Source of the DNA: Actinacidiphila sp. DG2A-62
GTDB taxonomy: Bacteria; Actinomycetota; Actinomycetes; Streptomycetales; Streptomycetaceae
Assembly: GCF_035825295.1 (NCBI RefSeq)
Contig: NZ_JAYMGI010000002.1
Coordinates: 5,385,501 to 5,449,500, forward strand
DNA: 64,000 nt
Direction: 5' to 3'
Shown here one piece after another: positions 2,224-61,409 of the stretch. The notes under the pieces were generated by a model that did not search any database, was not told where the DNA came from, and was given only the letters and a program-made list of their open reading frames with translations. The translations under genes were made by a program, and so were the position numbers. Within the stretch, counting starts at the first letter, position 1. Each line of letters begins with the position of its first letter.

Positions 2224-5125
<2,902 letters not shown>

Positions 5126-5825: not shown

Positions 5826-6206
5826 ATGGCACGCCTTTCAGGCGTTGACCTCCCGCGTGAGAAGCGCGTGGAGATCGCCCTCACCTACGTCTTCGGCATC
5901 GGGCGCTCGCTCTCCCAGCAGGTGCTGAAGGAGACCGGTGTGAACCCGGACACCCGCGTCCGCGACCTTGCCGAGGAAGACCTCGTCAAGCTGCGCGAGT
6001 ACGTGGACGCCAACCTCAAGACCGAGGGCGACCTCCGTCGTGAGATCCAGGCCGACATCCGCCGCAAGGTCGAGATCGGCTGCTACCAGGGCCTGCGCCA
6101 CCGCCGCGGCCTGCCGGTCCACGGCCAGCGCACTCACACCAACGCCCGCACCCGCAAGGGCCCGCGTCGCGCCATCGCCGGCAAGAAGAAGCCGGGCAAG
6201 AAGTAG
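5826..6206 (+). CDS. rpsM: 30S ribosomal protein S13
   Basis: 126 residues starting [20 protein letters not shown], with the helix-two-turn-helix core and the basic C-terminal tail ([19 protein letters not shown], then KKKPGKK) that contacts 16S rRNA and tRNAs at the A and P sites. It opens the alpha operon rpsM-rpsK-rpsD-rpoA-rplQ. AGGAGCCAAGG precedes the ATG. The upstream gap contains several short GC hairpins but no promoter I can call with confidence. Confidence 0.97.
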
Positions 6207-6275
6207 TCCTCAGCGGACCACCCATCAGCGGTCTTCGCTGTAGGACCGACCACCTCCACCGGGAGAAACCAGGAC

Positions 6276-6680
6276 ATGCCTCCTAAGGGCCGTCAGGGCG
6301 CAGTCAAGAAGGTGCGCCGCAAGGAAAAGAAGAACGTCGCTCACGGGCACGCCCACATCAAGAGCACGTTCAACAACACCATCGTCTCGATCACCGACCC
6401 GCAGGGCAACGTGATCTCCTGGGCCTCCGCCGGCCACGTCGGCTTCAAGGGCTCGCGCAAGTCCACCCCCTTCGCCGCGCAGATGGCCGCCGAGTCGGCC
6501 GCCCGCCGCGCGCAGGAGCACGGCATGCGCAAGGTGGACGTCTTCGTGAAGGGTCCCGGCTCCGGCCGCGAGACCGCGATCCGCTCGCTCCAGGCCACCG
6601 GCCTGGAGGTCGGCTCCATCCAGGACGTCACCCCGACCCCGCACAACGGCTGCCGCCCGCCGAAGCGCCGCCGCGTCTGA
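6276..6680 (+). CDS. rpsK: 30S ribosomal protein S11
   Basis: 134 residues, [20 protein letters not shown]..., with the S11 core ([18 protein letters not shown] and [20 protein letters not shown]) and the conserved C-terminus [16 protein letters not shown]11 forms part of the platform of the small subunit and the Shine-Dalgarno helix binding site. GGGAGAAACC lies upstream of the ATG. Spacing to rpsM (69 bases) and rpsD (26 bases) fits one transcript. Confidence 0.97.
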
Positions 6681-6706
6681 CCAGCTGAAACAGGAGATAC
6701 ACGACA

Positions 6707-7333
6707 ATGGCGCGTTACACCGGGGCCGACTGCAAGCGTTGCCGTCGGGAGAAGCAGAAGCTCTTTCTCAAGGGAGCCAAGTGCGAGAGCGCGAAGTGCC
6801 CGATCGAGATCCGTCCTTACCCCCCGGGTGAGCACGGACGCGGGCGCACCAAGGACAGCGAGTACCTGCTCCAGCTTCGCGAGAAGCAGAAGTGCGCGCG
6901 GATCTACGGTGTCCTCGAGAAGCAGTTCGTGAACTACTACAAGGAAGCGAACCAGAAGACCGGCAAGACCGGTGAGAACCTTCTGCGCATCCTTGAGACC
7001 CGCCTCGACAACGTGGTGTACCGGGCCGGCTTCGCCAAGTCCCGCGACCACGCCCGTCAGCTGGTCCGGCACGGACACATCACCGTCAACGGCCGCAAGA
7101 CCGACATCCCGTCGGCCCGCGTCGCCGTGAACGACATCGTCGAGGTCCGCGAGTCCTCCCGCAACCTGGTGCCCTTCCAGGTCGCCCAGGGCGAGGCCGG
7201 CGAGAAGACCGTGCCGGCGTGGCTGGAGGCCAACGCGGGCAAGCTGCGGATCCTCGTGCACAGCCTGCCCGAGCGCCAGGTCATCGACACCCAGGTGCAG
7301 GAGCAGCTGATCGTCGAGCTCTACTCCAAGTGA
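6707..7333 (+). CDS. rpsD: 30S ribosomal protein S4 (zinc-binding form)
   Basis: 208 residues. The N-terminal domain has cysteines at positions 9, 12, 26 and 31 (DCKRC, then KCESAKC), the zinc-finger type of S4, and a C-terminal S4 RNA-binding domain around RLDNVVYRAGFAKSRDHARQ and HGHITVNGRKTDIPS. S4 nucleates 30S assembly and in many bacteria represses its own operon by binding the mRNA. It lies in the alpha operon between rpsK and rpoA. Confidence 0.97.
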   Translation: MARYTGADCKRCRREKQKLFLKGAKCESAKCPIEIRPYPPGEHGRGRTKDSEYLLQLREKQKCARIYGVLEKQFVNYYKEANQKTGKTGENLLRILETRLDNVVYRAGFAKSRDHARQLVRHGHITVNGRKTDIPSARVAVNDIVEVRESSRNLVPFQVAQGEAGEKTVPAWLEANAGKLRILVHSLPERQVIDTQVQEQLIVELYSK

Positions 7334-45706: not shown

Positions 45707-45907
45707 TTAGCCCACGGAACAGAAAAGAGCCGCCAAACAGTGCAAAGCGCGGCATAACACCCGATCGGCAGCACCCTCCGCACGCCGAGTGGCGTTCCGG
45801 GCCGTGCCGCACCTTCGAAATTGCTCTCCTCTCACCCGTCTGACCTGCGGCGTAGTCGACTCGTACGCGCATGATCACGTAGAGTGCCGAAAGTGGCGTC
45901 CCGGCTC

Positions 45908-45935
45908 CGTAACTCTTTCGGGTGAGGGTCGTTGA
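45908..45935 (+). promoter_or_regulatory. Sigma-BldN-type promoter of bldM
   Basis: CGTAAC (45908-45913), exactly 16 bases, CGTTGA (45930-45935). This is the sigma-BldN consensus as I know it from S. coelicolor, where bldM is a direct BldN target. Transcription would start near 45943, leaving a leader of about 125 bases. Confidence 0.88.
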
Positions 45936-46039
45936 GTGTGGCGGAAGCGGTTGGCGGAGCAGGAGAAATCGGGCAGGCGCCCGAGGCCGTCCGCCGCAAC
46001 GGTGAAGATCTCGTACTTCGTACAGCCTGGAGGCACAAC

Positions 46040-46072
46040 GTGACGCGGTTCTGCTGCGGGGGGCGGTCATGA
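46040..46072 (+). CDS. Putative 10-residue leader peptide upstream of bldM
   Basis: GGAGG at 46029-46033 stands 6 bases before GTG 46040, which opens a frame of ten codons (M/V-TRFCCGGRS) whose TGA overlaps the bldM ATG as ATGA. The stronger ribosome binding site belongs to this mini-ORF rather than to bldM. Translation of bldM could be coupled to it, and two adjacent cysteine codons could make it sensitive to cysteine supply. All function is inference. Confidence 0.4.
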   Translation: MTRFCCGGRS

Positions 46073-46680
46073 CTTCCGTCCTCGTCTGTGACGACTCCCC
46101 GCTCGCCCGAGAGGCCCTGCGCCGCGCGGTGGCGACCGTGCCCGGTGTCGAGCGCGTAACCACCGCTGCCAACGGCGAGGAAGTGCTCCGCCGCTGGGGT
46201 GCCGACCGCTCGGACCTCATCCTGATGGACGTGCGGATGCCCGGCCTCGGCGGGGTGGAAACGGTGCGGCGGCTGCTGTCCGCCGACCCCGGCGCCCGCA
46301 TCATCATGCTCACCGTCGCCGAGGACCTGGACGGCGTCGCTCTCGCGGTGGCCGCCGGCGCCCGCGGCTACCTGCACAAGGACGCCTCCCGCGCGGAGTT
46401 GCGGGCCACCGTCACCCAGGCGCTGGCCGACCCCACCTGGCGGCTGGCCCCGCGCCGGCTGCGCTCGGCCGAGATGGGTGCCGCGCCCACCCTGACCGCG
46501 CGCGAGATCCAGGTGCTGGAGGGGATGAGCCACGGCCGGTCCAACGCGGAGATCGGCCGCGAGCTGTTCCTGTCGGAGGACACCGTGAAGACGCACGCCA
46601 GGCGGCTGTTCAAGAAGCTCGGCGCCTCGGACCGGGCCCACGCGGTGGCCCTGGGCTTCCGCTGGGGCCTGGTGCGGTAA
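46069..46680 (+). CDS. bldM: Response regulator BldM
   Basis: 203 residues from ATG 46069 (MTSVLVCDDSPLAREALRRA). The receiver domain (about 1-120) keeps the acidic pair and LILMDVRMPGLGG, while the C-terminal LuxR-type helix-turn-helix reads TAREIQVLEGMSHGRSNAEIGRE split across ~140-165, ending RAHAVALGFRWGLVR. BldM is an atypical regulator needed for aerial hyphae and sporulation and is known to work as a homodimer or with WhiI. The sigma-BldN promoter lies 134 bases upstream, and whiD is divergent. Confidence 0.95.
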   Translation: MTSVLVCDDSPLAREALRRAVATVPGVERVTTAANGEEVLRRWGADRSDLILMDVRMPGLGGVETVRRLLSADPGARIIMLTVAEDLDGVALAVAAGARGYLHKDASRAELRATVTQALADPTWRLAPRRLRSAEMGAAPTLTAREIQVLEGMSHGRSNAEIGRELFLSEDTVKTHARRLFKKLGASDRAHAVALGFRWGLVR

Positions 46681-46959
46681 GCACTCCGGTGAACTCCCGC
46701 GGTGCGGCCGGCGTCGCCCGCGAGTCCTCGGTTTCCCGGGGGAGGACGCATGCTTGAAGGTATGGACTTCCTCGGGGATCGGCGGGGGCCGCACGTGGCG
46801 GAGACGGCGGAGGCTGTGGAGGCGGCAGAGACCGCAGGGGCCGCAGGGGTCGCGGAGGCGACGGCCGGACCACCGGCGCGCCGCGCCGCGGATAACGCTT
46901 CGATGCAGAAGTTCGGCCGCGATGCCGCGGATCGTCCCGCGGCGAGGCACCATGGGTGG
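46681..46959. other. bldM-shbA intergenic region
   Basis: 279 bases. An open frame continues upstream of the shbA start (from 46702) and includes an Ala/Glu-rich stretch from a degenerate GCGGAGGC repeat (46797-46862), but it lacks conservation signals I recognise. A short A/T patch (GATAACGCTTCGATGCAGAA, 46889-46908) could hold the shbA promoter. Confidence 0.5.
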
Positions 46960-47571
46960 ATGCGTGACGACGAGACCTCGCCCATCGGTGCTCTCGTCCG
47001 CCGCGCGGCCGACGGCGATCAGCGGGCCGTGCACGACCTGCTGGCGCACGTCCACCCGCTGGCCGAGCGCTACTGCAGGACCCGGCTGTCCCGGCTGCCC
47101 GGCGAGGCCCGGCACTTCGTCGACGACCTCGCGCAGGAGGTGTGCCTGGCGGTGCTGTGCGCGCTGCCGCGCTACCGCGACCTGGGCCGGCCGTTCGAGG
47201 CCTTCGTGGTCTCCATCGCCGCGCACAAGGTCGCCGATCTGCAGCGCGCCGCCATGCGCGGCCCCGGCAGCACCGCGGTGCCCTCCGACGAGATGCCGGA
47301 GAAGCCCGACGACTCGCTCGGCCCCGAGGAGCGCGCGCTGCTCAACAGCGACGCCGCCTGGGCCAAGAAACTGCTCGAACGGCTCCCCGGCCACCTGCGC
47401 GAACTGGTGCTGCTGCGGGTCGCGGTCGGGCTGAGCGCGGAGGAGACCGGGCAGGTGCTGGGCATGTCGCCCGGGGCCGTACGGGTGGCGCAGCACCGCG
47501 CGCTGAGCAGGCTGCGGGCGATCGCCGAGGAGACCGCGGGCGCGCGGGCCGGCGAGGGCCTCACCGCGTAG
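46960..47571 (+). CDS. shbA: ECF-type RNA polymerase sigma factor ShbA
   Basis: 203 residues from ATG 46960 ([20 protein letters not shown]). Region 2 is [20 protein letters not shown] with [20 protein letters not shown], and region 4 is [20 protein letters not shown] followed by [15 protein letters not shown]. In Streptomyces ShbA drives transcription of hrdB, the principal sigma gene, so it is central to growth. The locus bldM-shbA-guaB supports the identity. Upstream in-frame starts exist (46903, 46753); the chosen start gives the family length but has only a weak purine tract. Confidence 0.9.
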
Positions 47572-49326
<1,755 letters not shown>

Positions 49327-49397
49327 CCTGCGCGCGGCCGCCGCGGCCGCGGTAGGGGATGATGGGGGCGCAAGCCGGACAGAGAGGCGCGGGTGCT

Positions 49398-50519
49398 GTG
49401 ACTGAGATCGAGATCGGACGGGGCAAGCGGGGCCGCAGGGCGTACGCGTTTGACGACATCGCCGTGGTGCCCAGCCGGCGGACCCGGGACCCCGAGGAGG
49501 TCTCGATCGCCTGGCAGATCGACGCCTACCGGTTCGAGCTGCCGTTCCTGGCCGCGCCGATGGACTCGGTGGTCTCGCCGGAGACCGCCATCAGGATCGG
49601 CACCTTCGGCGGCCTGGGCGTGCTCAACCTGGAAGGGCTGTGGACCCGCTACGACGACCCCGAGCCGCTGCTCGCGGAGATCGCCGAGCTGGACGACGCG
49701 CGGGCCACCGCGCGGCTGCAAGAGATCTACGACGCGCCGATCCGCGAGGAGCTGATCGGCCAGCGCATCAAGGAGGTCCGCGAGGCCGGCGTGGTCACCG
49801 CGGCCGCGCTGTCGCCGCAGCGCACCGCGCAGTTCTCCAAGGCCGTGGTGGACGCGGGGGTGGACCTGTTCGTGATCCGCGGCACCACGGTCTCCGCCGA
49901 GCACGTCAGCGGGTCGCACGAGCCGCTGAACCTCAAGCAGTTCATCTACGAGCTGGACGTGCCGGTCATCGTCGGCGGCTGCGCCACCTACACCGCGGCG
50001 CTGCACCTGATGCGCACCGGCGCGGCCGGCGTGCTGGTCGGCTTCGGCGGCGGCGCGGCGCACACCACCCGCAGCGTGCTGGGCATCCAGGTCCCGATGG
50101 CGACCGCGGTGGCCGACGTCGCCGCGGCCCGCCGCGACTACATGGACGAGTCCGGCGGCCGGTACGTGCACGTGATCGCCGACGGCGGCTTCGGCGTCAG
50201 CGGCGACCTGCCCAAGGCGATCGCCTGCGGGGCCGACGCGGTGATGATGGGCTCCCCGCTGGCCCGCGCCACCGACGCGCCGGGCCGCGGCTTCCACTGG
50301 GGCATGGAGGCGGTCAACCCCGAGCTGCCGCGCGGCAAGCGGATGAACCTCGGCACCACCGGCACCACCGAGGAGATCCTGCTCGGCCCCTCGCACGCCC
50401 CCGACGGCTCGATGAACTTCTTCGGCGCGCTGCGCCGCTCGATGGCCACCACCGGCTACTCGGACCTGAAGGAGTTCCAGCGCGTCGAGGTCACGGTCTC
50501 CCCGACCCACCACCGCTAG
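49398..50519 (+). CDS. GuaB3 family IMP dehydrogenase-related protein
   Basis: 373 residues from GTG 49398 (VTEIEIGRGKRGRRAYAFDD). The IMPDH-like barrel is recognisable (LPFLAAPMDSVVSPETAIRI, HVIADGGFGVSGDLPKAIAC, GADAVMMGSPLARATDAPGR) but it has no CBS domains. The loop that corresponds to the catalytic SICTT of IMPDH reads GFGGGAAHTTRSVLGIQVP, so histidine stands where the cysteine is expected. It cannot be a standard IMP dehydrogenase; a reductase role has been proposed for the family and is not settled by sequence. It follows guaB by 71 bases. Confidence 0.9.
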   Translation: MTEIEIGRGKRGRRAYAFDDIAVVPSRRTRDPEEVSIAWQIDAYRFELPFLAAPMDSVVSPETAIRIGTFGGLGVLNLEGLWTRYDDPEPLLAEIAELDDARATARLQEIYDAPIREELIGQRIKEVREAGVVTAAALSPQRTAQFSKAVVDAGVDLFVIRGTTVSAEHVSGSHEPLNLKQFIYELDVPVIVGGCATYTAALHLMRTGAAGVLVGFGGGAAHTTRSVLGIQVPMATAVADVAAARRDYMDESGGRYVHVIADGGFGVSGDLPKAIACGADAVMMGSPLARATDAPGRGFHWGMEAVNPELPRGKRMNLGTTGTTEEILLGPSHAPDGSMNFFGALRRSMATTGYSDLKEFQRVEVTVSPTHHR

Positions 50520-50530
50520 GCCGCTCCGCG

Positions 50531-50586
50531 GGGACATGCGTCAGGGCCCGTACCCCGCCCGGGGTACGGGCCCTGACGCATGTCCC
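50531..50586. terminator. 26-bp perfect stem-loop between convergent guaB3 and membrane protein
   Basis: Arms 50531-50556 and 50561-50586 are perfectly complementary over 26 bases with a 4-base GCCC loop. It begins 11 bases after the guaB3 stop and lies 19 bases from the convergent stop, so it should terminate both genes. It is the longest perfect stem seen in the window. Confidence 0.9.
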
Positions 50587-50605
50587 ATCAGCGGACGGCT
50601 CCGCG

Positions 50606-51214
50606 TCAGTTCGCGACGCGCTTGGTGATGAGGAAGCCCTCCAGCCCGGCGATGCCGAAGAACAGGATGTCCTTCGCGTCCATCGCGTCCTTCCAGGAGT
50701 CCTGGAGGAAGGAGTAGTGGTCGGTGAGTGCCGTCGTCACGCTGACGTCGTTCACGGACGCCGCGATCAGCGCGAGGCCGAAGATCTGCCCGAAGTAGAC
50801 CCCGAGCAGCGCCAGCGGCACGCCGACGAACGGCAGCGCCGGGTGGCGTCCGCCGATCTTGCCCAGCGCGAGGCCGACCAGCGCGCCGACGCCGAGCGCC
50901 GCGTACCCGATCTCGTGCTTGGTGCCCTTGATCAGCAGGCCGTAGAGCACCGCGGCCACGAGCATCGCCCCCACCCCGACCAGGATGCCGAGCGCGGGGT
51001 TGCCCGCGGCGCGGGCCATCGGGCCGCCGGGCGGCGGGTAGGCGGCCGGGTCGAAGCCCTGGGGCTGCGGGCCGCCCCAGCCGCCCTGGGGCTGCTGCTG
51101 GCCGCCCCACCCGGCCGGGGGCTGCTGTCCGTACGGCGCCTGCGGCTGCTGCGGGGCGTACGGGTTCTGGCCGGGCGCGGGCTGCTGTTGCGGCGGCGGG
51201 TAGTTGGCGCTCAT
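50606..51214 (-). CDS. Small polytopic membrane protein with Pro/Gln-rich N-terminus
   Basis: 202 residues from ATG 51214 (MSANYPPPQQQPAPGQNPYA). The first ~75 residues are a low-complexity Pro/Gln/Gly/Tyr region. Then come about four hydrophobic segments (LGILVGVGAMLVAAVLYGLL, YAALGVGALVGLALGKIGG, LPFVGVPLALLGVYFGQIFG, and a weaker one at ILFFGIAGLEGFLITK). No family with known function is recognised; such proteins are frequent in Streptomyces. GGGGGAACC precedes the ATG. It is convergent with guaB3. Confidence 0.75.
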   Translation of the reverse strand: MSANYPPPQQQPAPGQNPYAPQQPQAPYGQQPPAGWGGQQQPQGGWGGPQPQGFDPAAYPPPGGPMARAAGNPALGILVGVGAMLVAAVLYGLLIKGTKHEIGYAALGVGALVGLALGKIGGRHPALPFVGVPLALLGVYFGQIFGLALIAASVNDVSVTTALTDHYSFLQDSWKDAMDAKDILFFGIAGLEGFLITKRVAN

Positions 51215-51336
51215 GAAGGGTTCCCCCGAGGACGCGTGCGGACCGGCGCGGACGAGCGGCGCCGGTGCGGATGAGTGACGCCGAAATCTAGCAGGGGGGC
51301 ATGACAATAGGACAAGCTCGTTCATACGGTCGTTAC

Positions 51337-51393
51337 AGGACCACTACAGCCGGACAGGACCACTACAGCCGGACGGGACCACTACAGCCGGGC
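51337..51393. repeat. Three 19-bp direct repeats
   Basis: AGGACCACTACAGCCGGAC at 51337 and 51356, and a one- or two-base variant at 51375-51393. The third copy overlaps the last codons and TAG stop (51382-51384) of the dehydrogenase gene. The spacing is perfectly regular, as in iterons or a tandem operator. Confidence 0.85.
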
Positions 51394-52665
51394 CGCCGCG
51401 CCGGCGGGGGTCGCGCCGCGGGTGTCCAGCAGCAACTGCGCCTTGACCGCCAGCCCTTGCAGGTCGTACGTGCGGTGGTGCTGGAGCAGCAGCGTCAGGT
51501 CCGCCTCGGCGGCGGCCTCCCACAGCCCCTCCGCGCGCGGCACCGGCCGGTCCAGCACCCGCCAGCCGGGCACGTACGGATCGTGGTAGCACAGCTGCGC
51601 GCCCAGTTCGATCAGCCGCGCGCCGATCTCCCGCGCCGGCGCGCCCTGCTGGTCGGCGGTGTCGGCCTTGTACGTGACGCCCAGCAGCAGCACCCGCGCG
51701 CCGCGCAGCGACTTGCCGTGCTCGTTGAGCAGCGCGGCGGCGCGCTGGACGACGTAGCGCGGCATCCGGGCGTTGACCTCCTGGGCGAGTTCGACCATCC
51801 GCAGCGGGTGGCCGGGGGTGCGGGCCCGCCCGTCCAGCAGCCCGGGGGCGGCGAACGGCGGCGCGGCGTTGGGGTCCAGGGCCGGCGCGTGGCCGCCGAC
51901 GCCGGGCCCGGGCCGGAACGCCTGGAAGCCGAACGGCTTGGTCTCCGCGCAGCGCACCACGTCCCACAGGTCGACGCCCAGGTCGTGGCAGAGCACCGCC
52001 ATCTCGTTGGCGAAGGCGATGTTGACGTGCCGGTAGTTGGTCTCCAGCAGCTTGACCGCCTCGGCCTCGCGCGGGCCGCGGGCGCGGACCACCCGCTCGG
52101 TCAGCCGGCCGTAGAAGGCCGCCGCGGCCTCGGTGCACGCGGGCGTGCACCCGCCCACCACCTTGGGGGTGTTGGCCAGGTGGAAGACCCGGTTGCCGGG
52201 GTCGAGGCGGCTGGGGGAGTAGGCCAGGTGGAAGTCCCGCCCGGCGCGCAGCCCGTGCGACTCCAGCAGCGGGCGCAGGTACTGCTCGGTGGTGCCCGGG
52301 TAGACCGCCGACTCCAGCACCACCGTGGTGTGCGGGCGCACATGAGGGGCGAGCGCTCGGGCGGCGGCGGCGACCGCGCCGAGGTCCGGCGCGTGGTCCT
52401 CGCCGAGCGGGGTGGGCGCGCAGATCACCGCGGTCCGCACCCGGCCGAGCACCGCGGGGTCGGAGGTGGCGCGGAAGCCGCAGGCGAGCATCCGGCGCAG
52501 GTCGGCCGCGGCGAGCGCGCCGGGCGGCACCCGGCCCGCGGTGATGTCGGCGACGACGGCGGGGTCCGGGTCCCAGCCGATCACGCCGATCCCGGCGGCG
52601 GTGGCCGCCTGCGCGAGGGGAAGACCGGCATGGCCGAGTCCGAGTACGGCGAGGTCTGCTGGCAT
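51382..52665 (-). CDS. Nucleotide-sugar dehydrogenase lacking the catalytic cysteine
   Basis: 427 residues from ATG 52665 (MPADLAVLGLGHAGLPLAQA). It has the UDP-glucose/ManNAc dehydrogenase layout: NAD motif GLGHAGLPLAQA, ESAVYPGTTEQYL, central helix VKLLETNYRHVNIAFANEMA, and C-terminal domain LLLGVTYKADTADQQGAPAR. In place of the near-universal GGHCIPxDP the protein has GVGGHAPALDPN, so the catalytic cysteine is Ala. With no nucleophile the usual two-step oxidation should fail; it may work as an epimerase-like, reductase or binding protein, or be decaying. No glycosyltransferase neighbours are present. Confidence 0.85.
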   Translation of the reverse strand: MPADLAVLGLGHAGLPLAQAATAAGIGVIGWDPDPAVVADITAGRVPPGALAAADLRRMLACGFRATSDPAVLGRVRTAVICAPTPLGEDHAPDLGAVAAAARALAPHVRPHTTVVLESAVYPGTTEQYLRPLLESHGLRAGRDFHLAYSPSRLDPGNRVFHLANTPKVVGGCTPACTEAAAAFYGRLTERVVRARGPREAEAVKLLETNYRHVNIAFANEMAVLCHDLGVDLWDVVRCAETKPFGFQAFRPGPGVGGHAPALDPNAAPPFAAPGLLDGRARTPGHPLRMVELAQEVNARMPRYVVQRAAALLNEHGKSLRGARVLLLGVTYKADTADQQGAPAREIGARLIELGAQLCYHDPYVPGWRVLDRPVPRAEGLWEAAAEADLTLLLQHHRTYDLQGLAVKAQLLLDTRGATPAGAAARL

Positions 52666-52940
52666 GGCTGTCCGCCCTCCGCTGGGCCCACCTCATGGCT
52701 GCTAAAACAGGCTAACCAGACAAATCACTGATATGACCGCGCGGCGCGCCGACGACACCGCGCGGACCTCTCGGCAGGACCACCCCCGCGCGCCCGGACC
52801 GCCGGGCCTGGCCGGACCACCCGGGCTGGCCGCTCGCCGCCGATCCGGTCACTATCGAAGAGGCGCGGACATCACCATGAGCGCCGCACCGGCACTGAAC
52901 GCACCGAGACCGCAGCACCGACGCAGCCACGGAGGCACGG
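52666..52940. other. Dehydrogenase-glpD divergent region
   Basis: 275 bases. An A/T-rich patch at about 52694-52735 (CTGCTAAAACAGGCTAACCA, then ACAAATCACTGATATGACC) probably contains promoters for one or both directions. The sequence nearer glpD is GC-rich. No operator of known type was recognised. Confidence 0.5.
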
Positions 52941-54647
52941 ATGCGCACCACCACGCTCAGCCCCGCCCAGCGAGCCGAGGACCTGGCCCGGATGGCCGAA
53001 CAGGAACTCGACATCCTCGTCGTCGGCGGCGGCGTGGTCGGGGCCGGCACCGCCCTGGACGCCGTCACCCGGGGCCTTTCCGTCGGCATCGTCGAGGCCA
53101 GGGACTGGGCGTCCGGCACGTCCAGCCGCTCCAGCAAGCTCATCCACGGCGGCCTGCGCTATCTGGAGATGCTGGACTTCGCGCTGGTCCGCGAGGCGCT
53201 CAAGGAGCGCGGCCTGCTGCTGGAACGCCTGGCCCCGCACCTGGTACGGCCCGTGCCGTTCCTCTACCCGCTGCAGCACAAGGGCTGGGAGCGGCTCTAC
53301 GCGGGCTCGGGCGTCGCGCTGTACGACGCGATGTCCGTCTCCTCAGGACACGGCCGCGGCCTGCCCGTGCACCGCCACCTCAGCCGCCGGCACGCCCTGC
53401 GCGTCGCCCCCGCGCTGCGCAAGGACGCCCTGGTCGGCGCGCTGCAGTACTACGACGCCCAGGTGGACGACGCGCGCCTGGTGGTCACGCTGGTGCGCAC
53501 CGCCGTCGCCTACGGCGCGCTGGCCGCCAACCAGGCCCGCGTCACCGGCTTCCTGCGCGAGGGCGAACGAGTGGTCGGCGCGCGGGTGCAGGACGGCGAG
53601 CAGGGCGGCGAGTACCAGGTCAGGGCCCGCCAGGTGGTCAACGCCACCGGCGTGTGGACCGACGACACGCAGGCGCTGATCGGCGAGCGCGGCCAGTTCC
53701 ACGTCCGCGCCTCCAAGGGCATTCACCTGGTGGTGCCCAAGGACCGCATCCACTCCACCACCGGGCTGATCCTGCGCACCGAGAAGAGCGTGCTGTTCGT
53801 CATCCCCTGGGGCCGGCACTGGATCGTCGGCACCACCGACACCGACTGGGACCTGGACAAGGCCCACCCGGCCGCCTCCAGCGCCGACATCGACTATCTG
53901 CTCGAACACGTCAACTCGGTGCTGCACACCCCGCTCACCAGGGACGACGTGCAGGGCGTGTACGCCGGGCTGCGCCCGCTGCTGGCCGGGGAGTCCGACG
54001 CGACCAGCAAGCTGTCGCGCGAGCACACCGTGGCCCATCCGGTGCCCGGCCTGGTCGTGGTGGCCGGCGGCAAGTACACGACGTACCGGGTGATGGCCAA
54101 GGACGCGGTCGACGAGGCCGTGCACGGCCTGGACCGCCGGGTCGCCGACTGCTGCACCGAGGAGGTGCCGCTGATCGGCGCCGAGGGCTACCACGCGCTG
54201 TGGAACGCCCGCGCCCGCATCGCCGCCCGCACCGGCGTGCACGTCGCCCGGGTGGAGCACCTGCTCAACCGCTACGGGTCGCTCGCCGAGGACGTCCTCG
54301 ACCTGGTCGCGCAGGACGCCGAGCTGGGCCGCCCGCTCACCGGCGCCGACGACTACCTGCGCGCCGAAGTGGTCCACGCCGCCTCGGCGGAGGGCGCCCG
54401 CCACCTGGACGACGTGCTGGCCCGCCGCACCCGCATCTCCATCGAGACCTTCGACCGCGGCACCCGCTGCGCCCGCGAGTCCGCCGAGCTGATGGCGGGC
54501 GTCCTGGGCTGGGACACGGCGCAGATCGACAAGGAAGTCGCCTACTACGAGAAGCGCGTGGAGGCCGAGCGCGAGTCCCAATTGCAACCTGACGACCAGA
54601 CCGCGGATGCGGCCAGGCTCGGCGCGCCGGATATCGTGCCCCTCTAG
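52941..54647 (+). CDS. glpD: Aerobic glycerol-3-phosphate dehydrogenase (FAD)
   Basis: 568 residues from ATG 52941 (MRTTTLSPAQRAEDLARMAE). It oxidises glycerol-3-phosphate to dihydroxyacetone phosphate and feeds electrons to menaquinone at the membrane. Motifs: the FAD fold DILVVGGGVVGAGTALDAV, SSRSSKLIHGGLRYLE, WIVGTTDTDW and the late VVVAGGKYTTYRVMAKDAVD. The C-terminal domain (about 400-540) is the usual helical cap. It is followed by the kinase cluster with a 60-base gap. Confidence 0.95.
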   Translation: MRTTTLSPAQRAEDLARMAEQELDILVVGGGVVGAGTALDAVTRGLSVGIVEARDWASGTSSRSSKLIHGGLRYLEMLDFALVREALKERGLLLERLAPHLVRPVPFLYPLQHKGWERLYAGSGVALYDAMSVSSGHGRGLPVHRHLSRRHALRVAPALRKDALVGALQYYDAQVDDARLVVTLVRTAVAYGALAANQARVTGFLREGERVVGARVQDGEQGGEYQVRARQVVNATGVWTDDTQALIGERGQFHVRASKGIHLVVPKDRIHSTTGLILRTEKSVLFVIPWGRHWIVGTTDTDWDLDKAHPAASSADIDYLLEHVNSVLHTPLTRDDVQGVYAGLRPLLAGESDATSKLSREHTVAHPVPGLVVVAGGKYTTYRVMAKDAVDEAVHGLDRRVADCCTEEVPLIGAEGYHALWNARARIAARTGVHVARVEHLLNRYGSLAEDVLDLVAQDAELGRPLTGADDYLRAEVVHAASAEGARHLDDVLARRTRISIETFDRGTRCARESAELMAGVLGWDTAQIDKEVAYYEKRVEAERESQLQPDDQTADAARLGAPDIVPL

Positions 54648-54707: not shown

Positions 54708-56648
54708 ATGGTCGGACAGGTGGACGAAGGGCGGTTGGTCGCGGGCCGCTACCGACTGCTCGAACGCATAGGGCGCGGTGGCATGGGCACCGTCTGGCGG
54801 GCCGAGGACGAACTGCTCGGGCGGCTCGTCGCGGTCAAGAAGCTCCACCCGCCGCAACCGCACATGGACGACGACGAACTGGCCACCCTCTTCGAGCGCA
54901 CCCGCCGCGAGGCCCGGGCCGCGGCCAGGATCAGCCACCCCAACGTCATCGTGGTGCACGACGTGGTCGACGACGACGGGCTGCCGTCCATCGTCATGGA
55001 GTACGTCCCCTCGCTGACGCTGGGCGAGCGGCTGAAGCAGCAGGGCGCGCTGCCGGTCCCCGAGGTCGCCAGGATCGGCCGCGGCATGATCGCCGCGCTG
55101 CGCGCCGCCCACCACGCCGGGGTGCTGCACCGCGACGTCAAGCCCGGCAACGTGCTGCTCGGCGAGCCGGGCAGCTCCACCGGCACCCAGTCGGTCAGCT
55201 ACGAGGCCGACGGCACACCGGTCGAGGGGCCCGGCGGCCGGGTCGTGCTCACCGACTTCGGCATCGCGCAGGCGTCCGGCACCTCGACGCTGACCCGCAC
55301 CGGCGAACTCATCGGCTCCATCGACTTCCTGTCGCCGGAGCGGATACGCGGCGTGCCGCCGGGCCCCGAGGCCGACCTGTGGGCGCTGGGCGCCACGCTC
55401 TTCCAGGCCGTCGAGGGCGTCTCGCCGTTCCGCCGCCCCACCGCGATCGAGACCGCCTACGCCATCGCCGAGGAGCCGGTCCCCGAACTCGACGCGGGTG
55501 CGCTCACCCAGGTGATCGCCGGGCTGCTGGCCAAGGAGCCCGAGCAGCGGCTGTCCGCGGAGGACGCCGAGCGGATGCTGCGGCTGCCGGCCGCCGAGGC
55601 CGACACCGCGCTGGTCGACCGGGCCCGCTTCCAGCAGACCAAGCCCCCCGCCCCGGACCCCGCGGGCGACACCACCGGCCACGGCGCCGGCCACGGCGCC
55701 CCGCCGCCGAGCGCGTACGGACAGCAGGGCACCTACGGCGGCCCGGGCGCGTACGCGGGCGGGCAGACCGGGCAGACCGGGCAGACCGGGCAGACCGGAC
55801 CCACCGGCCAGGGCACGTACGGCGGCGGGCAGACCGGGCCCACCGGCTCAGGTGCGCGCACCGGCCCCGGCGCGTACGGCGGCCCCGGCGCGTACGGCTA
55901 TCCGCAGCAGGGCGGCGGGTACGAGCCGCCGACCGGGCAGACACAGCAGACGCCGCAGCCCGCGCCCTGGCGGCGCTCCCGGCGCGCCGGGCGCTGGGTC
56001 GCCGCGGCCGTCGCGATCGCCGTGCTGGCCGCGGGCACCGCCGTGCTGGTCGGCCACTACCGGTCGCGCGGCGACGACGCCGGGCGTCTCACCCCCTCGC
56101 CCACGCCGCCGACCAGCGGACCGGCCACCCCGACCAGCACCGCACCGACCACGCCCGCCACCCCGACCACGCCGCCCTCCTCGCCGCCCGCGGTGCCGGA
56201 CGGCTACCACCTGGCGAGTGTCCCCGACCGCGGCTACTCGGTGCCGGTGCCGGACGGCTGGACCCGGCAGAAGGCCGGACCCAAGGGCGACGACGAGGTC
56301 AACTGGGTCAGCCCGGACGGCAAGAGCGGACTCAAGGTCAGCGCGCTGGACTTCGGCACCAGCGACCCGTACCAGCACCTGGTCGCGCTGGAGCCGCAGA
56401 CGCAGTCGCAGGTCGACGACTACCACCGCGAACGGCTGGACTCCACCCAGCAGTTCGGCGGGCCCGCGGCCATCTGGGAGTTCACCTTCCAGGGCAGCAA
56501 ACGCCGTTACCACGCCATCGACCTGGACTTCGGCAAGCCGGGCGGCATCGAGTACGCCGTCTACCTGAACGCGCCGGACGCCAAGTGGCAGGAGCAACTC
56601 CCGGTGTTCCAGAACGCGGTGGCCGGTTTCCGGCTTTCCGGCCAATAG
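54708..56648 (+). CDS. Receptor-type Ser/Thr protein kinase 1
   Basis: 646 residues from ATG 54708 with GGCGGAGG upstream. The kinase domain (about 12-285) is complete: G-loop IGRGGMGTVWRAED, VAVKKL lysine, HRDVKPGNVLL, DFGIAQ and SPERIRG. A linker of Gly/Gln/Thr/Tyr repeats (GQTGQTGQTGQTGPTGQG) runs to one membrane segment (WVAAAVAIAVLAAGTAVLVG, about 435-455). After a Thr/Pro stalk comes an outer domain of ~140 residues beginning GYHLASVPDRGYSVPVPDGW. It heads three kinase-type genes in a row, matching the kinase cluster next to guaB in S. coelicolor. Confidence 0.92.
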   Translation: MVGQVDEGRLVAGRYRLLERIGRGGMGTVWRAEDELLGRLVAVKKLHPPQPHMDDDELATLFERTRREARAAARISHPNVIVVHDVVDDDGLPSIVMEYVPSLTLGERLKQQGALPVPEVARIGRGMIAALRAAHHAGVLHRDVKPGNVLLGEPGSSTGTQSVSYEADGTPVEGPGGRVVLTDFGIAQASGTSTLTRTGELIGSIDFLSPERIRGVPPGPEADLWALGATLFQAVEGVSPFRRPTAIETAYAIAEEPVPELDAGALTQVIAGLLAKEPEQRLSAEDAERMLRLPAAEADTALVDRARFQQTKPPAPDPAGDTTGHGAGHGAPPPSAYGQQGTYGGPGAYAGGQTGQTGQTGQTGPTGQGTYGGGQTGPTGSGARTGPGAYGGPGAYGYPQQGGGYEPPTGQTQQTPQPAPWRRSRRAGRWVAAAVAIAVLAAGTAVLVGHYRSRGDDAGRLTPSPTPPTSGPATPTSTAPTTPATPTTPPSSPPAVPDGYHLASVPDRGYSVPVPDGWTRQKAGPKGDDEVNWVSPDGKSGLKVSALDFGTSDPYQHLVALEPQTQSQVDDYHRERLDSTQQFGGPAAIWEFTFQGSKRRYHAIDLDFGKPGGIEYAVYLNAPDAKWQEQLPVFQNAVAGFRLSGQ

Positions 56649-56760
56649 GCCGGGTTCGCTTCGCCGTCCCCCGTTCGGGGATGATGGACGGGCGCGCCGG
56701 CGACGGCGCGACAAGTCGACAACAGCCGGCACAGCGGCGGCACACTTAAGGACAGCACCC

Positions 56761-59048
56761 ATGAGCGAGGTCGAAGGCCGTACCGAGGGACGTGTGCTCG
56801 CCGACCGGTACCGCCTCGGCGACGTGCTCGGCAAGGGCGGCATGGGCACGGTGTGGCGCGCGGTCGACGAGACGCTGGGCCGCAGCGTGGCGGTGAAGGA
56901 GCTGCGCTTCCCCGGCGACGTCGACGAGGACGAGAAGCGCCGCCTGGTCACCCGGACGCTGCGCGAGGCCAAGGCCACCGCGCGCATCCGCAACACCGGC
57001 GCCATCACCGTCTTCGACGTGGTCAAGGAGGACGACCGGCCCTGGATCGTGATGGAGCTGGTCGAGGGCCGCTCGCTGGCCGACGTGATCCGCGACGACG
57101 GCCCGCTGGAGCCGCGGCGCGCCGCCGAGGTCGGCCTGGTGCTGCTCGACGTGCTGCGCGCCGCGCACGCCGAGGGCATCCTGCACCGCGACGTCAAGCC
57201 GTCCAACGTGCTGATCGCGGACGGCGGTTCCGGGGCCGCGGGCGCCGGCGGCGGGCGCGTGGTGCTCGGCGACTTCGGCATCGCGCAGATCGACGGCGAC
57301 CCCTCGGTGACCTCCACCGGCATGCTCGTCGGCGCGCCGTCGTACATCTCCCCGGAGCGGGCCCGCGGGCACAAGCCCGGCCCGCCGGCCGACCTGTGGT
57401 CGCTCGGCGCGCTGCTGTACGCCGCGGTCGAGGGCCGGCCGCCCTACGACAAGGGCTCGGCGATCGCCACGCTGACCGCCGTGATGACCGAGCCGGTCGG
57501 GCCGATGCCGCACGCCGGGCCGCTGGCCGAGGTGATCCGCGGGCTGCTGGACAAGGACCCGGAGCGCCGCCTGGACGAGCCGGGCGCGCGGGCACTGCTG
57601 ACCGCCATCGTCAACGCGCCGGAGCGGCCCGCGGTGCCGCCGGCCCGCTCCGGCGACGACCGGACGATGGTGCTGCCGGCGGGCGCGGCGGGCGCGGCGG
57701 CGGGCGCGGCGGGCGCGGCAAGCGCCGCCGGTGCGGCGGGTGCCGCGCGGGCGCCGGGTTCCGCCGGCGCGGGCAAGGGGGCGTCGGGCGCGGGGACGCC
57801 GGGAGCCTCCGGCGCCGCGGCGACCGCCGCCACCAAGCCGCTCGACGCCGCGCGGACGCCGCCGCGGCCGACCGCACCGCCGTCCGTGCCGCCGTCGTTG
57901 GCCGGGCCCGCGAGCGCGGCGGCGGCCGGCTCCGTCGCCGAGCCCGCGGCGCCGGACGCCCCCGGCACGCCCTCCGGCACGCGAGGGTCCGCGCCCGCCG
58001 CCCCCGGCACACCGCCCGTGCCGCCCTCCGCGCCGCCGACCGTGCCGCACGGCATCACGGCCAGGTCCGGGCAGGGCCCGCTCGGCGGGATCGACCCGGC
58101 CCGGATACGCGCCGCGCTCGGCTCGGTGCGCAGGGCCGCCGCGAAGGCGAGACCCGCGCCCGAGCCCGGCACCCCCGAGAGCACCCGGCGCCCGGCTCCG
58201 TCCTCGCTCACCGACGTGGTGCCGCGCCGTACCCTGATCATCGCGGTCGCCGTCCTCGTGCTGGCGATCCTCGGCACGGTCATCGGCATCGCGGTGGCCA
58301 ACTCCGGCGGCGGCGACGGCGGTTCCGACAAGCCCGGCACCGGCAAGCCCACCCCGAGCGCGACCCGTACCGGCACCTCCGGCGCCGGAACCGCGGCGAC
58401 GGGCGGCGACGGCAAGAACGGCGCGGGCAAGAAGGACGGCGCCACGTCCTCGGACGACGACACGAATGCGGGCCGCGGCAAGGCGTCCGGCGACGACTCC
58501 GGCGACGACGCGCAGTCCTCCGGCGCGACCTCCGGCGCGAAGTCCGGTCCGGGCAAGGGGAATCCGGCCGCCCCGGGCAGCGCCGAGTCCCTCCCGGCCG
58601 GCTGGCACTGGGCGACCAGCACCCGCTTCCACTTCGCCATCGGCCTGCCGGCCGGCTGGCGGCAGACCGGCACCACGGAAGGCGGCTCCGGCGCGATCTT
58701 CAGCGCGAACGGCGGATACCCGCGCTCCAGGTCGACTTCACCTCCTCGCCCGGCAAGGACGCCGCCGCGACCTGGCGGCAGAACGAGCCCTACACCCGCA
58801 GCACCAGCACCGACTACCACCTCATCGGCATCCACACGATCCAGTGGCGCGGCTATCCCACTGTCGCCGACTGGGACTTCCTGCGCACCGCCTCGGGCAC
58901 CAAGGTGCACGTGAAGGACCGCGGCTTCGTCGTGGACGCCGACCACGGCTACGCGATCATGGCGTCGATCCCGGCCGGCTCCTGGGACAGCCCGGCCATG
59001 ACGGCCCTGCGCAACGGTTTCTACGCCACCTTCCGAGTGGTCGGTTGA
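56761..59048 (+). CDS. Receptor-type Ser/Thr protein kinase 2 (frameshifted as sequenced)
   Basis: From ATG 56761 (MSEVEGRTEGRVLADRYRLG). The kinase domain is intact: LGKGGMGTVWRAVDE, VAVKELRF, HRDVKPSNVLI, DFGIAQ, SPERARG. An Ala/Gly/Pro-rich linker (about 300-485), one membrane segment (TLIIAVAVLVLAILGTVIGI) and a second charged linker precede the outer domain (FHFAIGLPAGWRQTG...). The frame slips at 58720-58724, where CCG is followed by CG and then CTC CAG GTC; one G seems missing. Restored, the protein continues LQVDFTSSPGKDAAATWRQN to a clean end NGFYATFRVVG, about 762 residues. The outer domain resembles those of kinases 1 and 3. Confidence 0.88.
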
Positions 59049-59340
59049 CCCACCGGCCGAACTTCCGGGCCGCCGGGCCGGATTGGCCGGCCCGCGGCTG
59101 GGTACCGCTGGTACGGGCACACCGCGCGGGCGTGCCGCACCGCCGCCGGCAGCGGCGGAATCGGGCGGACGGGGGCCGCTCGTGCCAATCCGCGCCTGCG
59201 GAGCGCCCGTAGCACGTATCGTGAGGAAGTGCGGACTGTCCGCATCCGCAAACGTGCGCGACCGGAGCGTCTCCGGTCGCCGCGGGACCGGATCGGACCG
59301 GTGCGCGACAGGAAGTGAACGGGCCGGGAAGGGGGGCGCC
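59049..59340. other. Gap between kinase 2 and kinase 3
   Basis: 292 bases. Around 59216-59262 there is a more A/T-containing stretch (GTATCGTGAGGAAGTGCGGA, then GCATCCGCAAACG) that could include a promoter, followed by GACCGGAGCGTCTCCGGTC, a small hairpin at 59270-59288. An open frame on the plus strand continues upstream from 59341 but looks non-coding. Confidence 0.45.
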
Positions 59341-61409
59341 GTGGAGGAATACGCAGGGCGGGTGCTCGCCGAGCGCTACCGGCTGCCCAGGCCGCCGGCC
59401 GACGAGTTCGAACTCGTCGAGACCCGCGCCTTCGACACGTACAGCGGCCAGGAGGTCCTGGTCCGCCAGGTGCTGCTGCCCGAGGTGGTGACCGCCGAAC
59501 TCGTCGGCGACGAAGGCGACTTCGCCGACCCGGAGGGGCTGGGCGACAGCGCCCGCCGGGCGCTGTCCGCGGCCCGTGCGGCCGCCGCGATACCCGACCA
59601 CCCGCGCCTGGTGCAGGTCTTCGACATCTTCGTCGAGGACGGCAGCCTGTGGATCGCGAGCGAACTGGTGTCCGCACGGCCGCTCGCCGCGCTCCTGGCC
59701 GAGCAGCCGCTGGACCCCTACCGCGCCGCCGAGGTCGCCTCCGACGTGCTGACCGCGCTGCGCGCCCTGCACGCCCACGGCTGGACGCACCGCAACGTCA
59801 CCGCGAGCACCGTGCTGATCGCCGACGACGGCCGGGCGATGCTCGGCGGGCTCGCGGCCGGCGCCGCCCAGGAGGCGCTGTGCGGCTACGACCCGCTGCC
59901 CGAGGAGGTGCTCGCCGGCGGCGACGGCGCGCCCGCCGAAGCGCCCTGGCACGGCCCGCAGAGCGCGCTGGAGCAGGAGCGCGCCCGGCAGAACCGGATC
60001 ACCGTGGTCGGCGCGGTCACCGAACGGTGGGCCCCCGAACAGGCCCACGAGGTGCACGAGAACTGGCGGCTGTCGCCCCCGGTCGGCCCGCCCGCCGACC
60101 TGTGGGCGCTCGGCTCGCTGCTCTTCCGCAGCGTCCAGGGCCACCCGCCCTACCCCGAGGAGTCCGCCGCCGAACTCGTCCAACTGGTCTGCGCGGAGCC
60201 GCCCGCCTTCGCCGAGGAGTGCGGCGCGCTGCGGCCCGTCGTCGAGTCGCTGCTCCGGCCCGACCCCGAAGAGCGGCCGGACGCCGAGGAGTTGGGCGGC
60301 TGGCTGCGGTCGCTGATCCGGTCCGCGCCCGAGCCCGACATCGGCGCCCACACCGTCCAGGTGCCCACCGACCCGGCCCGGCTCCCGGTCAAGCGCCGCC
60401 GCGGCGAGCTGGTGCGCCGCCGCCGCAGGGCCGCCGCCGCGGAGAACGCCGTGCAGGGCGGCCACCGCCGGCACGCCCGCGGCAAGCAGGCCCGCCCGGC
60501 CCGCCCGGCGCGACCCGCCAAGACGCCGCGCCCGGCCAAGGACGGCGCCCGGCCCGCCAAGGCGGTGCGCCCGGCCGCGTCCGGCCCCGTGGACGAGCTG
60601 AGCGAGATGCGCATGGGCCAGCTCTTCCACCGCGAGCAGGTGGTCTCCTCGGGGCCGGCGCCCGCGCCGAGGAGGCCCCGCGCCGCCTGGGCGTACGCCT
60701 GCTGGTCGCGGTGCTCGTGATCCTGCTGGCCGTGGTGCTCTACGCGCTGCTGGTGATGCCGCACCGCAACACCGACTCCAGCGGCTCGGACGGCACCCGC
60801 AGCGTCCCGGCGGAGGTCACCGGCGGCGGCGACGGCACGTCCGGCACCAGCGCCCCGCCGACCGCCGCGGCCACCACGCCGTCGGCGAAGCCGACGACCG
60901 CGCACCCCACCCGCCCGCCCACGACCGCGCCGCACACCACCGCCGCGCCGCCGCCCGACCTCGGCCCGGACTTCGCGATGCACACCGACCCGGCCGGCTT
61001 CACCGTCGCCGTGCACACCGGGTGGGTGCGCTCGGGCAAGAACGGCAGGGACCGGGTGGTCTTCTCCGGCAGCGGGCTCCGGATGACCGTCGTCCCCGGC
61101 CGGGACAAGGCGTCCGGCGACTCCCAGGACCCGCTGGCGTACCAGCTGGTCGAGTCCGAACTCGCCGACTTCCGCGCCTCCTCGTGGTCCTCGGCCTCGG
61201 GCCTGCAGGCGCTGTCGGTGCGCGGCCACCCGGCCGCCGAGGGCGAGTACACCTGGCGCGACAGCGCGGACAACACCGTCTACGCCCGCAACCTCGCGAT
61301 CCAGATCGGCGGCCGCTACCACGTCGTCCTGGTCTCCGGCTCGGACGCCGACCGCGCGGCCGTGCAGCGCGCGTTCGACAAGGTCGTGGAGACCTACACC
61401 GCCGGCTGA
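59341..61409 (+). CDS. Membrane pseudokinase (frameshifted as sequenced)
   Basis: From GTG 59341 (VEEYAGRVLAERYRLPRPPA). The fold is clearly kinase-like: TAVLIADD-type hinge, HAHGWTHRNVTASTVLIAD, PPADLWALGSLLFRSVQGHP. All catalytic residues are changed: no glycine loop, VAVK becomes VLVRQV, HRD becomes HRN, and DFG becomes LGG in AMLGGLAAG. It should bind or regulate rather than phosphorylate. A Lys/Arg/Pro/Ala linker leads to a membrane segment (VRLLVAVLVILLAVVLYALL) and an outer domain (PAGFTVAVHTGWVRSGKNGR to the end). The frame slips at 60652-60660 within GGGGCCGGCGCCC; one base is missing. Corrected length is about 689. Confidence 0.85.

Follow-up and report, generated by a model that had tools for sequence, protein, structure and literature searches.

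A conserved ActPs2-like pseudokinase, the putative counterpart of SCO4776, beside PkaH-type kinases in the Streptomycetaceae

Two subjects that are already known, each separately, bear on the locus described here. In Streptomyces coelicolor a cluster of five genes, SCO4775–SCO4779, is reported as pkaH, SCO4776, pkaD, pkaI and pkaJ, with SCO4776 called an eSTPK (PMC4416010). The ActPs2 family, on the other hand, is described as a group of actinobacterial pseudokinases of unknown function in which the β3 Lys is replaced by Arg in almost all members, the Asp of the HRD motif is replaced by Asn, and the DFG motif is lost, mostly by deletion; about 90% of the members carry a 32-residue insertion between β3 and αC and an activation-loop extension of ~250 residues, and a membrane region lies C-terminal to the kinase fold (PMC12599244). 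The locus studied here lies in a stretch of 64,000 nucleotides (the window) from Actinacidiphila sp. DG2A-62, contig NZ_JAYMGI010000002.1, positions 5,385,501 to 5,449,500 of the forward strand. It comprises three genes for kinase-like membrane proteins, K1, K2 and K3 (Table 1), and K3 appears to encode an ActPs2-like pseudokinase that corresponds to SCO4776.

None of the three residues by which an active Ser/Thr kinase is recognised, the catalytic Lys, the HRD Asp and the DFG Asp, is present in K3. The glycine loop is missing, the β3 strand carries QEVLVRQ, the catalytic loop reads HRNVT, and GLA stands where DFG is expected, so that the loss of the glycine loop, Lys, HRD and DFG, which the original prediction had claimed for the third protein, is borne out. 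All three catalytic motifs class K3 as a pseudokinase, and this character is conserved.

Two sets of loci were compared, 31 from the same genus as the window and 61 named loci; the sets overlap and are not independent. The traits that K3 shares with ActPs2 are Arg at residue 42 in β3, HRN, the loss of DFG, the C-terminal membrane helix (60687–60758) and perhaps extra residues between β3 and αC. The DFG site holds GLA or a similar triplet, which is a substitution rather than a clear deletion. From the β3 motif to the αC motif there are 26–44 residues (30 of the 31 genus loci were readable), a measure of the whole span and not of the excess over an active kinase. An apparent difference from ActPs2 lies in the activation loop, whose very long extension is found in part of the Streptomyces members and is short in the window's genus: in all 31 genus loci the span from catalytic loop to APE is 69–106 residues, as against 253–812 residues in 19 of the 53 readable named loci and shorter spans in the rest. 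Judged by these motifs, K3 would be a good fit to ActPs2 except for the length of this loop in the window's genus. Across species, motif matching in the named Streptomyces loci L083–L120 puts the same stretch of the pseudokinase at 63 to 812 residues.

An AlphaFold3 model of an ActPs2 representative in complex with ATP (iPTM 0.87) places R42 and R177 at the phosphates (PMC12599244), and residue 42 of K3 is Arg in the window, as it is in 32 of the 45 named loci in which it was numbered. K3 might accordingly bind nucleotide or have some other catalytic activity, as a low-activity or alternative enzyme. We regard this as unlikely, however, as the same residue is His in 7 of the 45 and the glycine loop, the DFG Asp and the catalytic Asp have all been lost.

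The degenerate state is widely retained. In all 32 aligned rows from the genus the catalytic motifs are lost and HRNVT is invariant, and of the 34 other genomes in the genus 33 were matched by the K3 kinase-like domain in an in-frame search, the missing genome being 71% complete. Among the 61 named loci the catalytic loop is HRN in 54 and HGN in one, with no motif match in six (one of these has HHN and five are without that part of the gene); HRD was seen in none of the 55 with a matched loop. The β3 residue in these 61 loci is Arg in 45, His in 7 and unread in 9. When 25 genomes from 11 other genera were reread, 19 had a degenerate loop (HRN, HGN or more decayed) and two had the C-terminal half only; a K3-type loop without HRD is found in nine of the 11 genera. 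Within the taxonomic family, 389 of 394 genomes are matched by the K3 kinase-like domain at 1e-20, a figure that is an upper bound because only 19 of the 25 reread genomes had the degenerate loop. A search at the level of the order matched, though weakly, 13 of 15 genomes from other families, and since ordinary kinases score as high (in the window's own genome, the second match), we make no claim beyond the family.

The ratio of non-synonymous to synonymous substitution rates (dN/dS) in the kinase domain has a median of 0.225 for K1, 0.223 for K2 and 0.223 for K3 (465 pairs each), with maxima of 0.975, 0.443 and 0.423 respectively; the simple counting method and the G+C-rich DNA make the absolute values rough. 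The K3 kinase-like domain is under purifying selection equal to that on its active neighbours. These ratios, together with intact frames in the relatives, rule out a family-wide decaying pseudogene.

In the window K1 is one open frame. K2 and K3 had been taken for single open reading frames (ORFs) as well, but each shifts frame once, which the first reading of the sequence missed: K2 at about 58722–58725, within the outer domain, and K3 shortly before the membrane helix, somewhere between about 60654 and 60687. That two of the three genes shift frame could mean that K3 is a decaying gene and that both breaks are real inactivations in this strain. Against this, the dN/dS of K3 equals that of the active neighbours, and in 31 of 31 regions from relatives (taken from 32 located among 34 same-genus genomes) each of the three genes runs in one frame from kinase through outer domain, apart from one K1 that is cut by a contig end. 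Breaks of this kind also occur elsewhere in the window; 5 of 44 matched stretches, K2 and K3 included, are frame-shifted relative to one relative, a rough count in that some of the chosen stretches may be antisense frames and a single relative served as reference. Decay therefore seems very improbable. Because K2 and K3 are intact in all 31 regions and other stretches of the window are frame-shifted too, assembly indel errors are the likely and simplest reading of both shifts, a real mutation in the strain being possible. A programmed frameshift is unsupported, given the unbroken frames in all 31 relatives. Window positions 3519–4179, 6019–6816 and 45835–47171 likewise each align with an ORF of one relative in two different frames, and suggest scattered indels in the assembly.

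The relation to the S. coelicolor cluster can be read from gene order, a kinase tree and one peptide. Streptomyces loci L101 and L120 have the order PkaH-type, HRN gene, PkaD-type (HRDVKPGN), PkaI-like and PkaJ-type (HRDVKPDN), L120 having a sixth kinase as well, and 13 of the 14 residues of the PkaI peptide, as published, recur in the activation loop of the fourth gene. The tree was built from 78 kinase domains of 19 named loci and the window, kinases below 140 bits against the window's domains being left out. It places K3 in a pseudokinase clade (20 rows, support 100/100) and K2 in a PkaH-type clade (20 rows, 98/93), with a separate PkaI-type clade (11 rows, 100/100); the group of K1 is sister to the PkaD-type genes at 88/90, below the strict threshold. 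We infer that K2 is probably of PkaH type, K3 of SCO4776 type and K1 PkaD-like, the likeness to SCO4775–SCO4779 being read from order, tree and peptide, with S. coelicolor outside the named loci.

A PkaH-type gene stands upstream of the pseudokinase gene on the same strand in every one of the 52 named loci whose upstream sequence extends for 2.6 kb or more (49 score above 350 bits and three at 341–350), the other nine of the 61 being too short. The Streptomyces loci have the PkaH-type gene, the pseudokinase and then, in part of them, PkaD-, PkaI- or PkaJ-type genes, with no K1-type gene upstream of K2. Because the cluster is made up differently there, the conserved unit is narrower than the trio of the window and consists of a PkaH-type kinase and the pseudokinase. 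The proposal that the three genes form one set thus holds for the K2-type and K3-type genes, which occur together in the readable loci, but not for K1, whose position is not kept in the Streptomyces loci. Compared with SCO4775–SCO4779, the window has the same succession of PkaH-type gene and pseudokinase and the same receptor-type kinases; it differs in that the PkaD-like K1 lies upstream of K2 and that K3 is not immediately followed by another kinase.

The outer domains of K1, K2 and K3 begin with aromatic-x-V/I-x-x-x-x-G-W. The pattern first proposed, F/Y-x-V-P/A-x-GW, is right in that a pattern is shared, but two more positions precede the GW. Profile–profile comparison gave E-values of 9.8e-16 for K1–K2, 2.6e-7 for K1–K3 and 1.7e-9 for K2–K3, with 0.12 for one unrelated control; each is a single comparison, and the K2 profile was built from relatives only. 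By these profiles the three domains are homologous, in agreement with the original prediction, and the unrelated folds that it had named as grounds for giving it up did not appear because the domains share ancestry.

Only the outer domain of K3 was modelled. It is predicted to have the PsbP/Mog1/LpqN fold, the model matching LpqN, Rv0040c and Apa of Mycobacterium tuberculosis, PsbP and Mog1 with 11–15% identity in the alignments; these proteins, of the same predicted fold, are not kinase ectodomains. The claim of this fold rests on the model, because the K3 outer-domain profile matched none of 177635 sequences of solved structures up to an E-value of 1. In the K1 outer-domain family, Pfam PsbP is matched by 23 of 30 members (best E-value 5.4e-5), the window's own member being unmatched; in that of K2, Pfam Lpp-LpqN and PsbP are each weakly matched by 4 of 29. 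A related outer domain is present in 6 of 6 PkaD-type and 8 of 8 PkaI-type proteins, as typed by the tree, of eight chosen loci. A PsbP/Mog1-like ectodomain is therefore likely to be the common sensor fold of the cluster kinases, distinct from PASTA repeats, for which the Pfam scan gave no match up to an E-value of 1. The window proteins resemble the PASTA kinases (PknB/StkP type) in having a kinase, a juxtamembrane linker, a single helix and an outer sensor part, and differ in that this outer part is PsbP/Mog1-like.

Published genetics provide a setting for the function of K3. In S. coelicolor, deletion of the five genes, or a second copy of any one of them including SCO4776, gives aberrant spores, and germination is sensitive to vancomycin in the deletion and extra-copy strains, except with extra pkaI; PkaI phosphorylates MreC and PBP2 on co-expression in Escherichia coli, and a PkaI fragment binds PkaI, PkaA and PkaD in two-hybrid tests (PMC4416010). 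The SCO4776 protein has been detected in proteomes of S. coelicolor and Streptomyces lividans (PMC9739823, 2022). The effects of extra copies were read by their authors as overbalanced phosphorylation (PMC4416010). If SCO4776 is dead, as gene order and motifs indicate, its dosage phenotype would be better explained by binding than by excess phosphorylation: the surplus protein could act on an active kinase, or on the substrate of one, by titration, pairing or blockage.

Our leading reading, to which we give an even chance, is that K3 corresponds to SCO4776 and is a membrane-anchored, dead Hanks-type pseudokinase that selection has retained in this cluster of receptor-type kinases, where it would act as a non-catalytic partner. 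Its kinase-like lobes and outer domain would pair in the membrane with kinases of the PkaH type, perhaps also of the PkaD or PkaI type, and the pairing would set how active these are or whether they reach their substrates in the spore-wall synthesizing complex. The pairing, the direction of its effect and an envelope ligand are proposed here by inference from the observations above.

Several observations weigh against such a partnership. No single gene, SCO4776 included, restored the five-gene deletion; SCO4776 is not among the partners named in the main text for the two-hybrid screen with the PkaI fragment; and each of the five S. coelicolor genes is reported to be transcribed on its own, with differing expression profiles (PMC4416010). 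No kinase is known to interact with the pseudokinase, and the predicted structure of its kinase-like domain, with a mean pLDDT of 34, was not used for pairing surfaces. In Actinacidiphila sp. DG2A-62 itself, K2 and K3 are frame-broken as assembled. Four of the 25 reread genomes, from genera g2 and g18, have ordinary HRD kinases only, and in genus g27 the homologues (L161, L162, L163, L164, L167 and L168) have HGN loops and lie in open stretches of only 364–387 residues in which a K3-type outer domain is not clearly present (L163 has one weak match of 31.6 bits), as if the ectodomain had been lost from these pseudokinases.

The main rival to a regulatory partnership is that K3 serves as a phosphorylated docking platform, its juxtamembrane part being phosphorylated by the neighbouring kinases and recruiting FHA-type proteins to the wall machinery with no tuning of the kinases. 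The precedent is MviN (ActPs3) of M. tuberculosis, where PknB phosphorylates a tail that recruits FhaA (PMC12599244). C-terminal to its kinase-like domain K3 has, beside a conserved basic stretch, one Thr (near residue 334 in L047) that at least 90% of the 31 rows share. No further Thr or Ser along the K3 linker is kept in 90% of the rows, however, and K3 belongs to a different pseudokinase family from MviN; we consider this role rather improbable. The pseudokinase domain of MviN/MurJ in mycobacteria resembles K3 in that both are dead Hanks kinase folds with a link to envelope synthesis; it differs in belonging to a larger membrane protein that peptidoglycan synthesis requires, in its motif losses and in its family (PMC12599244).

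A more specific form of the partnership, which we put forward tentatively as possible rather than probable, is that K3 is the counterpart of a receptor pseudokinase. The dead kinase would pair through PsbP/Mog1-like ectodomains that sense an envelope ligand, and so would time spore-wall building with the PkaH-, PkaD- and PkaI-type kinases. If this were true, the dosage phenotype of SCO4776 would be its first known activity, exerted without phosphotransfer.

What is new here is the connection between the cluster and ActPs2, the wide retention of the pseudokinase and the common, probably PsbP/Mog1-like, ectodomain. The words Streptomyces, extracellular and PsbP are absent from the main text of the ActPs2 review (PMC12599244, 2025), and the literature searched, whose coverage leaves out most subscription papers, yielded no paper in which SCO4776 is connected with a pseudokinase. 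The connection ties a family of unknown function to a genetically tractable, already mutated S. coelicolor cluster, and makes two questions testable: the role of ActPs2, and the reason for which spore-wall synthesis is disturbed when a gene taken for a kinase is present in an additional copy.

Table 1. Positions of the three genes and their features in the window.
Feature	Position	Strand	Description	Basis
K1	54708..56648	+	Active-type Ser/Thr kinase, PkaD-like	ORF, motifs, Pkinase 136.4 bits, tree
K1 kinase domain and linker		+	Kinase domain, then Gly/Gln/Thr-rich linker	
K1 membrane helix	55995-56054	+		
K1 outer domain	56226-56645	+		
K2	56761..59048	+	Active-type Ser/Thr kinase, PkaH (SCO4775) type	Motifs, Pkinase score, tree, relatives
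K2 membrane helix	58231-58299	+		
K2 outer domain	58627..59045	+	Interrupted by frame change	
K3	59341..61409	+	Pseudokinase, SCO4776 type, fits ActPs2	Motifs, alignment, tree
K3 β3 strand	59449..59472	+	QEVLVRQV; Arg (residue 42) replaces ATP-binding Lys (active kinases VAVK)	
K3 catalytic loop	59788..59811	+	HRNVTAST; Asn replaces catalytic Asp, Thr replaces Lys (active kinases HRDVK)	
K3 GLA	59848..59856	+	At DFG position of active kinases	
K3 C-lobe landmarks	60022..60114	+	ERWAPE and ADLWALG retained	
K3 membrane helix	60687-60758	+	After frame change	
K3 outer domain	60957..61406	+		

Each of the three proteins has a low-complexity linker, a single hydrophobic helix and a C-terminal outer domain, which confirms the order of kinase fold, linker, one helix and outer domain expected for all of them. 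The glycine loop, VAVK, HRDVKPxN and DFG are all present in K1 and K2, and the Pfam Pkinase model gives K2 137.1 bits, close to the score of K1, and K3 54.7 bits. Upstream of K1, positions 47836–54647 of the window, which are matched in one relative, hold ORFs that we take by resemblance to be two of guaB type and one for a glycerol-3-phosphate dehydrogenase-like protein, and, on the other strand, one presumably for a UDP-sugar dehydrogenase-like protein.

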